A stretch of 64,000 nucleotides of DNA from contig NZ_LR733520.1 in assembly GCF_902506145.1 (NCBI RefSeq), positions 2,277,476 through 2,341,475 of the forward strand, written 5' to 3'. Position numbers and translations under genes: made by a program. This DNA comes from Burkholderia sp. 8Y (GTDB lineage: Bacteria > Pseudomonadota > Gammaproteobacteria > Burkholderiales > Burkholderiaceae). Positions within the stretch are counted from its first letter, which is position 1; the number at the start of each line of letters is the position of its first letter. The notes beneath the pieces are model-generated. The model had not been told where the DNA came from. It saw only the letters and a program-made list of their open reading frames with translations, and ran no database searches. Shown piece after piece: positions 41,945-43,915 of this stretch.

Positions 41945-42247
41945 CTAAGCAGCCGGTTTTGCCGATGCGCGCGGCTCTGCGCAGCGGAAAGTCAGCTCGC
42001 GAGGATTGCCGCGGCCGGGAACGCTATCGACGGATTGCGCCGGCACGACTTGCTGTTCCTTGCAGATTTGCGCGGCGGCTGCCATGCAAGCGTTCTGCGA
42101 TTCGAACAGACCGGAGCACGTCACGCGATAAGCGTTCGGCTCCCCGGCGATGTTCACCTTGCGGGCGGTGTAGGTCATGCCCGTGTCGGTCGAACAGGCC
42201 GAGAGGACGCCGACGCATAGGAGAGCGGTGATAAGAAGTTTGGACAT
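41945..42247 (-). CDS. small secreted lipoprotein, unknown function
   Basis: 100 residues, starting MSKLLITALLCVGVLSACST, a type II signal peptide with lipobox LSAC, so probably lipidated at Cys18. The mature part has further Cys residues (YRVTCSGLFESQNACMAAAA, AAQICKEQQ, LTFRCAEP) that could form two disulphides. It lies just downstream of the YadA-anchor remnant and may be an accessory of the former adhesin; homologous lipoproteins near trimeric autotransporters are known, but this link is inferred. The start at 42247 is used; an upstream extension lacks any signal. Confidence 0.8.
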   Translation of the reverse strand: MSKLLITALLCVGVLSACSTDTGMTYTARKVNIAGEPNAYRVTCSGLFESQNACMAAAAQICKEQQVVPAQSVDSVPGRGNPRELTFRCAEPRASAKPAA

Positions 42248-42356: not shown

Positions 42357-42761
42357 TTACCAGCGATACGACGCGTTCGCGCTGTACACCGTGCCGCTGC
42401 GGGTCGTACCAGCACCCGCCTTCAGCACGAGGTTCTGCGTGACGCGCAGGTTCAGCGCGACGGCCGCAGCCGCATAGCCCTGATACGACGCACCACCCAC
42501 GCCGACGGACATGGTCTTGTCCTGGTCGATGTTCGGAACCATCGCCAACGCCGTGGCAGCAGCAATGCCCGAGTAGGCAGTGCGGCCACCCGTGACGAGA
42601 TAGGTAGCTTTCACGCGCGGCGAGCGTTTGAGCAGCATCACCAGGTAAAGGCAATTTTGGAAGATGCCGTTTTCCCAGAGTGACTGCTCGCCTTTGCGGA
42701 TGAAGATCGATACGCCCACATTGAGCCGTTCCGGCATACGGGGATTCGTTTGCTTGTTCAT
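42357..42761 (-). pseudogene. chimeric remnant: DUF2827 N-terminus fused to YadA-type membrane anchor
   Basis: 134 residues. Positions 11-56 (LNVGVSIFIRKGEQSLWENG, then IFQNCLYLVMLLKRSPRV) align without gaps to the N-terminus of the neighbouring DUF2827 protein (RIGISVVTHQGQNIWQNGLG). From about residue 60 it becomes a YadA anchor: TAYSGIAAATALAMVPNIDQ, KTMSVGVGGASYQGYAAAAV, and ends YSANASYRW with a terminal Trp. The body of the glycosyltransferase and the adhesin signal peptide, head and stalk are gone. The fusion is in frame and its ATG overlaps the DUF2827 stop (ATGA), so it may be translated, but it has no signal peptide and should not reach the outer membrane. Confidence 0.82.
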
Positions 42762-43915
42762 ACGCCGAGCTTCGCCTCGCTACCTTTGAACAGGTTCAGT
42801 AACCGGTCGGCAAAGCTGTCCAGGTTCGCTTGATTGAAAGGATTCACCGAGTCGATGACGCGCTGGGCGCGCGCCCGATAATCGCCAAGCGACGCATCAT
42901 GTTCTCTGGCCGCGCGCAGCAGTTGTCGCCCGCCCTCCTGTGAATCGAAGCCGGGGTAGTAATATCCCGCGTCGAGCCAAGGCGAGTTATGGACGAGCGG
43001 ATAGCCGCCGTACAGTACGTCGAGATAAAGATAATTCTGGTCGTTGCCCCATTGATGAGACACGACAGCATCCGAGAATTGCGACATGAATCCTGCGATA
43101 TCGTTGCGTCCGTGAAAGGTCGCTTTGCTGTCTTTAACGAGGTTCAGCGAATTAGCCATTTGCACGAGCGTCGGATGATCCTTCATGTGCAAAGTGTTCA
43201 GCACATGCATGTGCGATACGCTCGAAGGATCGGTTCGATAGGCCTCTTCGCACGCCAGCATCGGAATACTGGACGTTTTGACGACCGAGATGTTCGGCTC
43301 GAAGATCGAAACCCGGAAGCCCTGCCGTTGTGAAGAATCATTCAATGATCCGTCTGTGCGCGGCTGATATCCATAATGCAACCCGTGTTCGCTCACCTCC
43401 GCGATGCGCTGCTCTAAAAACTGCGGATGCCAGATGAAGGGCACGAGATGAACGTCGCAACGGTGAAGCGTGCGCATCATAGGCATGGACAGGCGGTCCT
43501 TCGACATCAACCAGATTTCGTCGTAGCGGTCGGGGCGCATGACGTGCACCGGCTTGTCGAACACCGGCGATTCCACCAGTCCGACGTACGGCTGGCCGCA
43601 GCAGTAATAGACGACTTTCTTGCCGCGGGCACGCATGAGGTCGAGCCATTGCGTGTCCAGTGCGCCGCCCATTTCAAATACGACGTCCACCTGGTCGGCT
43701 GCATCGTGCGTCCGCATGATGCGCATACCTTTCGATGACGCGTCGACCTGCGGCGGCAAGGCGTTTTGATCGCCCACATCGATGAGCGTAATGCCTTCCA
43801 CGAACGGTAGCCGTTGCAAAGCCTCAGCCAGAAAGACGACGTTCTGTCCGAGACCGTTCTGCCAAATGTTCTGCCCTTGATGCGTGACGACAGATATTCC
43901 GATTCGAATAGTCAC
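42758..43915 (-). CDS. DUF2827 family protein, probable glycosyltransferase
   Basis: 385 residues, MTIRIGISVVTHQGQNIWQN. The protein fits the DUF2827 group, with a Rossmann-like N-terminal half (VDVVFEMGGALDTQWLDLMR), VHVMRPDRYDEIWLM, and a C-terminal half containing HQWGNDQNYLYLDVLYGGYP and LVHNSPWLDAGYYYPGFDSQ, reminiscent of GT-B glycosyltransferases that hold a nucleotide-sugar. No signal peptide, so cytoplasmic. Overlap with a second, truncated DUF2827 copy joined to a YadA anchor suggests the pair once glycosylated a trimeric autotransporter; this is inference. Confidence 0.75.
   Translation of the reverse strand: MTIRIGISVVTHQGQNIWQNGLGQNVVFLAEALQRLPFVEGITLIDVGDQNALPPQVDASSKGMRIMRTHDAADQVDVVFEMGGALDTQWLDLMRARGKKVVYYCCGQPYVGLVESPVFDKPVHVMRPDRYDEIWLMSKDRLSMPMMRTLHRCDVHLVPFIWHPQFLEQRIAEVSEHGLHYGYQPRTDGSLNDSSQRQGFRVSIFEPNISVVKTSSIPMLACEEAYRTDPSSVSHMHVLNTLHMKDHPTLVQMANSLNLVKDSKATFHGRNDIAGFMSQFSDAVVSHQWGNDQNYLYLDVLYGGYPLVHNSPWLDAGYYYPGFDSQEGGRQLLRAAREHDASLGDYRARAQRVIDSVNPFNQANLDSFADRLLNLFKGSEAKLGV

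Follow-up and report, generated by a model that had tools for sequence, protein, structure and literature searches.

We analyzed a 64,000-nucleotide window from Burkholderia sp. 8Y (contig NZ_LR733520.1, positions 2,277,476 to 2,341,475). At positions 42357-42761 of the window, on the minus strand, an open reading frame joins the beginning of a DUF2827 protein to the YadA-type anchor of a trimeric autotransporter adhesin (TAA). As the initial annotation of this DNA had proposed, the anchor was joined to a second DUF2827 gene by a deletion, which also removed the adhesin's passenger and signal peptide; alignments to related genomes bear this out. We think it quite likely that the frame is a young deletion scar and, jointly, that a triad of DUF2827 proteins glycosylates TAAs with repeats of the motif SLST. 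The chimera itself matters only as a scar that exposes the partnership of DUF2827 with TAAs, and as one case of the repeated loss of adhesins in Caballeronia.

A deletion scar in a DUF2827-adhesin locus

The chimera is a single frame of 134 amino acids from ATG to stop. Its residues 15-64 match positions 1-50 of the DUF2827 profile (PF10933, 362 positions; E = 3.9e-14), so only the first part of the domain is present. Residues 76-134 match the complete YadA_anchor profile (1-60 of 60; E = 5.4e-15), and this match reaches the last residue, as expected for the C-terminus of a TAA. Because of these E-values, a chance match is ruled out for either half, and the in-frame chimera is real. In contrast to the anchor, the other parts of a TAA (the ESPR or signal peptide, the stalk, and the head) had no Pfam match in the chimera. 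Without a signal peptide or a passenger, it is very unlikely to reach the outer membrane. Nor is the chimera a BimA protein: the two NCBIfam models for BimA match the anchor part alone and score 61.2 and 59 bits, where the cut-offs are 600 and 800. The best-scoring named matches of the chimera are from Caballeronia, and we therefore assign the genome under study to that genus.

We compared the chimera to 61 genomes, including the one under study. (We refer to that genome as G000 and to the further genomes by other G numbers; L numbers are extracted genomic regions.) Residues 1-62 are 90% identical to the second DUF2827 gene (b) of G012, while residues 13-62 are just 35% identical to the intact neighbor in G000, gene a. 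The N-terminus had first been likened to that neighbor, but it is the start of gene b and not a copy of gene a. The initial annotation had also asked if the short fusion is conserved across species, as a real gene design might be. It is not: a fused protein that extends over residues 1-134 was found in G000 and in none of the other 60 genomes, and we rejected a conserved design.

Adjacent DUF2827 and YadA-like genes were sought in related genomes, and they were found in Caballeronia. The fullest layout there has three DUF2827 genes (a, b, and c) and then a TAA, all on the same strand. The open frame of the TAA has 3295 amino acids in G005 and 3658 in G029, and the G005 protein has Pfam matches to ESPR, stalk, and anchor. 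An ancestral locus with two DUF2827 genes and a trimeric autotransporter had been envisaged; the adjoining TAA was correct, but there were three DUF2827 genes. G000 has lost gene c, most of gene b, and all of the TAA except its end.

DNA alignments to the two closest relatives, G074 and G012, place the junction within the range (42580-42595) that had been suggested for the ends of the deletion (Table 1). The upstream match ends at 42582 and 42585, respectively, and the downstream match starts at 42588 and 42587. In most other relatives, the matches end about 20 bases or less from these positions. The outliers are G022, whose upstream match ends at 42616, and G062, whose downstream match starts at 42530. 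Outside the two closest relatives, the parental sites deviate from GGC by at least one base. The DNA between the parental sites is 3.2 kb in G074 and in G011, 4.0 kb in G021, and 4.5 kb in G012, and it is much longer in G005 (12.1 kb), G029 (13.2 kb), and G072 (13.9 kb). We propose that the ancestral operon contained the three DUF2827 genes, followed by a large TAA with SLST-type Ser/Thr repeats. Illegitimate recombination across about three common bases would have deleted the DNA between a site near codon 59 of gene b and a site shortly before the anchor of the TAA.

Alternatively, a giant repeat gene could have been collapsed during assembly. In G004, G006, and G009, a contig does end on the TAA side of the locus. 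But the lost DNA includes genes that are not repetitive (most of b and all of c) and the N-terminus of the TAA, and the junction lies inside a 3.1 Mb contig. (The G000 assembly has 37 contigs and 6.28 Mb.) The other DUF2827 genes in G000 are a separate second pair only, and that pair is present beside the triad in G012, G074, and G078. A 300-amino-acid piece from the N-terminus of the G005 TAA had no match in G000; it had matches in G012, G074, G078, and its source. Misassembly is unlikely, and we give a collapsed repeat gene very little credence.

DUF2827 is present in 23 of 58 genomes of the genus (including G000), and several of these loci are damaged. In G012, the frame of gene b is broken and the TAA is split over two frames. 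The TAA of G074 is short and also split over two frames, and in G078 the start of the TAA is retained and the anchor is absent from the locus. G011, G017, G007, and G062 have partial or broken DUF2827 genes. G063 has an independent DUF2827-TAA fusion of a similar kind: a gene c stub of 67 amino acids continues, without a change of frame, into passenger sequence of the SLST type, and the anchor is in a different frame. In G000, the only other YadA anchor that we found (C2:389328-389495; L008:6341-6499) is a stub in a 74-amino-acid frame; its relative in G078 is in a frame of 985 amino acids. Since both anchors in G000 are stubs, there is no intact TAA in this genome by the searches that we made. 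(Judged by eye, the second stub is flanked by genes for a sensor kinase-like protein and a DegP-like protease.)

The scar appears to be recent. Of the differences from G074, 18 are synonymous and 2 are non-synonymous in the DUF2827 stub (57 codons), versus 13 and 1, respectively, in the anchor part (75 codons). So few non-synonymous differences point to a young scar or, less probably, to one that is still under constraint. Selection on the chimera as a functional small protein would account for this coding-sense conservation, and the overlap of the chimera's start codon with the stop codon of gene a also speaks for it. However, a recent deletion would leave identical conservation. The chimera has neither a signal peptide nor a passenger, it is present in 1 of 61 genomes, and the fusion in G063 is different, with its anchor out of frame. 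We consider a functional small protein highly improbable.

Table 1. Features around the deletion scar (positions in the window)
Feature	Positions	Strand	Basis
Chimeric open frame (deletion scar), 134 aa	42357-42761	-	ORF call and two Pfam domains in a single frame
First part of DUF2827 gene b; start codon overlapping the gene a stop codon (ATGA)	42588-42761	-	Sequence and homology
Deletion junction; GGC common to both parental sites in the two closest relatives	42582-42588	.	DNA alignment
TAA C-terminal end, including the complete YadA anchor (42360-42536)	42360-42584	-	Pfam and homology with TAA genes in related genomes
Gene a (DUF2827, intact), 385 aa; GT-B glycosyltransferase by prediction	42758-43915	-	
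Gene for a putative lipoprotein of 100 aa, immediately after the anchor	41945-42247	-	Lipobox read by eye

Linkage of DUF2827 to adhesins with SLST repeats

The association of DUF2827 with adhesins, which the initial annotation had suggested from this locus, holds well beyond this genome. We used a sample of 399 genomes from the order and a sample of 397 genomes from the phylum, in which 7 and 8 genomes, respectively, scored over the DUF2827 cut-off (G000 included). These samples overlap. Without G000, and with G343 excluded (it is below the cut-off), their union contains nine genomes, which were chosen regardless of adhesins. Eight of the nine have a YadA anchor on the same strand as a DUF2827 gene and 96-2307 bp upstream of it. 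If anchors were placed randomly across the genome, just 0.105 genomes would be expected to have an anchor within 3 kb (P = 5e-16). (For G168 and G316, the positions are from a local anchor profile, and a Pfam search confirms one anchor in each. The local profile missed the G733 anchor, in L166, and the Pfam position was used instead.)

DUF2827 and YadA anchors also occur in the same genomes. In the phylum sample without G000, all seven DUF2827 genomes have a YadA anchor (E of 0.001 or better), compared to at least 61 of 389 genomes that lack DUF2827 (P = 3.4e-6); at most 15 candidates per genome were scored, so the count of YadA-positive genomes may be low. None of 20 DUF2827-negative genomes of the order had YadA, but these were hand-picked among the matches listed, and so the phylum sample is the count that we rely on. 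In another set, 43 of 43 DUF2827 genomes have the anchor, which is partly due to selection, as 34 of them were reached via loci picked for their likeness to the chimera.

In a tree of 86 DUF2827 proteins, there are three deep clades, which correspond to genes a, b, and c, and each of them includes both Alpha- and Betaproteobacteria. (Gene b was assigned to its clade from the orthologue in L009; the stub in the chimera is not in the tree.) In the loci that we read outside Caballeronia, the TAA usually comes first and is followed by a, b, and c; in Caballeronia, the TAA is last. Although a-b-c is the usual order, there are exceptions: L034 has b-a-c, and L035 has c on the opposite strand.

Some loci contain additional genes. 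In Paraburkholderia terricola, the TAA and the first DUF2827 gene are separated by a gene of the OmpA family (L042:5917-6717). In Cupriavidus sp. BIS7, a frame with no Pfam match (L053:9098-9721) lies between the second and third DUF2827 genes, and there are similar gaps in other loci.

The linked adhesins have an unusual composition. We compared TAAs that were hand-picked among the matches listed, mostly for long open frames, and "unlinked" means not beside a listed DUF2827 match (one DUF2827 match each of G819 and G821 is unlisted). The median fraction of Ser+Thr in the passenger was 0.447 for 20 linked TAAs versus 0.216 for 20 unlinked TAAs (p = 1.6e-6), and 15 of the unlinked TAAs are from genomes that also supplied a linked one. 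Within Caballeronia, the fraction was 0.450 in 10 TAAs of DUF2827 loci, 0.330 in 15 other TAAs of DUF2827-positive genomes (16 regions were taken and L278, which was empty, was dropped), and 0.205 in 40 TAAs of DUF2827-negative genomes. Six of the 10 are in the locus, and five of these have a fraction of at least 0.35, as do all four that have an orthologous anchor on another contig (L260-L263). Outside Caballeronia, 20 TAAs of DUF2827-negative genomes had a fraction of 0.190. Altogether, the fraction is at least 0.35 in 28 of 30 TAAs that are linked or in DUF2827 loci, in 8 of 35 non-adjacent TAAs of DUF2827-positive genomes, and in 0 of 60 TAAs of DUF2827-negative genomes.

The linked TAAs also share a motif. 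SLST is the commonest tetrapeptide in the 20 linked TAAs from outside Caballeronia, with 1438 occurrences versus 50 expected from composition. In the same three groups, it occurs at least five times in 28 of 30, 15 of 35, and 1 of 60 TAAs. NX(S/T) sequons are not enriched in the linked TAAs (2.11 per 100 residues, versus 2.17 in unlinked TAAs; p = 0.2). Two genomes with stand-alone DUF2827 genes have non-adjacent TAAs that are rich in SLST: G043 has a TAA with 89 copies elsewhere in the genome, and G077, which has just a stand-alone pair, has a TAA with 43 copies on another contig. These cases fit with DUF2827 acting at a distance.

A proposed role for DUF2827 in adhesin glycosylation

Gene a is a full-length member of the family (profile positions 1-362; 430.7 bits versus a cut-off of 25; E = 5e-129), and its predicted structure has a GT-B fold. 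This supports the label of glycosyltransferase that the initial annotation had given to DUF2827, even though Pfam and NCBIfam gave no basis for it. Residues E206, N208, and K213 are invariant. NCBIfam has no family for gene a. When 86 members were scanned against Pfam, 18 families besides DUF2827 turned up, with at most three members each and E-values of 0.019 or worse, and no member matched a BAHT-type family. A search of solved structures by sequence found no match for the single protein, and a profile search found one chain, at E = 0.26.

From the linkage, the composition, and the predicted fold, we propose that DUF2827 probably puts sugars on the adjoining Ser/Thr-repeat adhesins. The modelled fold starts at residue 3, and the enzymes would be cytoplasmic, like those of the HMW1C and BAHT types. 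Prior to export of the TAA, they may transfer sugars from nucleotide donors to serines and threonines of its SLST repeats. The three orthologous paralogues suggest stepwise building of the glycan, in which one paralogue would start the glycan and the others would extend it.

How does this compare to known systems? As described in a 2021 review, two classes of cytoplasmic glycosyltransferases serve type V secretion, NGT and BAHT (PMC8151025). According to that review and another article, HMW1C-type NGTs are dedicated adhesin glycosyltransferases, the genes for HMW1C and EtpC are co-transcribed with those of their adhesins, and Knh and EmaA, which are trimeric autotransporters, are substrates of HMW1C homologues (PMC8151025, PMC8498110). 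But NGTs modify NX(S/T) sequons, and the DUF2827-linked TAAs are enriched in Ser and Thr instead. BAHTs are similar to the proposed system in that they are cytoplasmic, are dedicated to autotransporters, and modify serines and threonines of these proteins prior to export; however, the substrates that we cite from the review (TibA, AIDA-I, and Ag43) are classical autotransporters (PMC8151025), while the partners of DUF2827 are trimeric. In Gram-positive bacteria, serine-rich repeat adhesins are also glycosylated by the products of a gene cluster, but they are exported by accessory Sec. Here the secretion is of type Vc, and the two TAAs that we scanned have the ESPR signal and YadA domains. A parallel on the adhesin side is BCAM2418 of Burkholderia cenocepacia, a TAA with SLST-signature repeats for which the authors suggested putative O-linked glycosylation; we did not find the word glycosyltransferase in the article's main text (PMC7142374).

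We are inclined to think that DUF2827 triads form a third class of dedicated glycosyltransferases for type V secretion. Three GT-B paralogues would build an O-glycan on the SLST repeats of giant TAAs in Alphaproteobacteria, in Burkholderiales (including Snodgrassella, from the bee gut), and in a further order, and they would supply the enzymes that are missing for TAAs with SLST repeats, such as that of B. cenocepacia. If so, a Pfam family that has no function would gain one, together with a predicted acceptor motif (SLST), and the Ser/Thr repeats of many giant adhesins would be explained. In the open literature, we found, among the papers listed, none that by title or abstract describes a link between DUF2827 and TAAs, but subscription papers and preprints were outside the scope of this search, so a prior description is possible. 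The sole mention of DUF2827 in the open literature that we searched is a table row, "Uronic acid pathway."

Several observations weigh against DUF2827 triads glycosylating SLST-repeat TAAs. First, the linkage has an exception among the nine genomes: G043 has three DUF2827 genes and no TAA anchor in its 20-kb region. Our statistics also ignore kinship, and genomes of one genus are not independent. Second, the motif and the enzymes do not always coincide. G733 has a linked TAA with no SLST and a Ser+Thr fraction of 0.344, and the linked TAA of G021 (a 565-amino-acid frame) has 4 SLST and a fraction of 0.267. SLST repeats are also found in the 15 of 35 TAAs mentioned above that are not beside DUF2827, and G081, with no detected DUF2827, has a TAA (L244) with 9 SLST. 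(G081 may have lost the enzymes, its assembly may have a gap, or it may be a true exception.) Third, EX7E, the motif of GT4 retaining enzymes, is not conserved. Unlike in BshA and other GT4 enzymes, 73 of 86 DUF2827 proteins have Asn where the first Glu would be; for the second Glu, 45 of the proteins have Glu and 41 have Asp. Fourth, a second DUF2827 pair with no TAA nearby is found in this clade (in G000 and also in G012, G073, G074, G077, and G078), and G000, G074, and G078 retain intact DUF2827 genes despite a lost or broken linked TAA. So, either the losses are recent, or some copies of DUF2827 have another substrate.

The other substrate could be a lipid, a capsule, or another surface glycan. 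The neighborhood of DUF2827 and TAA genes would then be a shared mobile or adhesin island, and the scar would reflect ordinary decay. The persistence of DUF2827 in those three genomes and the stand-alone pair in G000, beside ABC-transporter genes, agree with this, and a GT-B fold by itself does not say what the acceptor is. But an island does not explain why the composition of the passengers and the SLST motif track the presence of DUF2827, even for TAAs that are not adjacent to it. Nor does it explain the conserved strand and side of the anchor relative to DUF2827. We regard the island explanation as doubtful and favor glycosylation of the TAAs.

Other genes near the DUF2827 copies of G000

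The second DUF2827 pair of G000 (L007, C2:1410381-1412638) stands alone; its neighbors are ABC-transporter and 3-hydroxyacyl-CoA dehydrogenase genes, with no adhesin among the four that were scanned. In the window itself, the putative lipoprotein gene that follows the anchor (Table 1) is retained in G074 and G012, where it lies downstream of the end of the TAA, and it might encode an accessory protein for the TAA.
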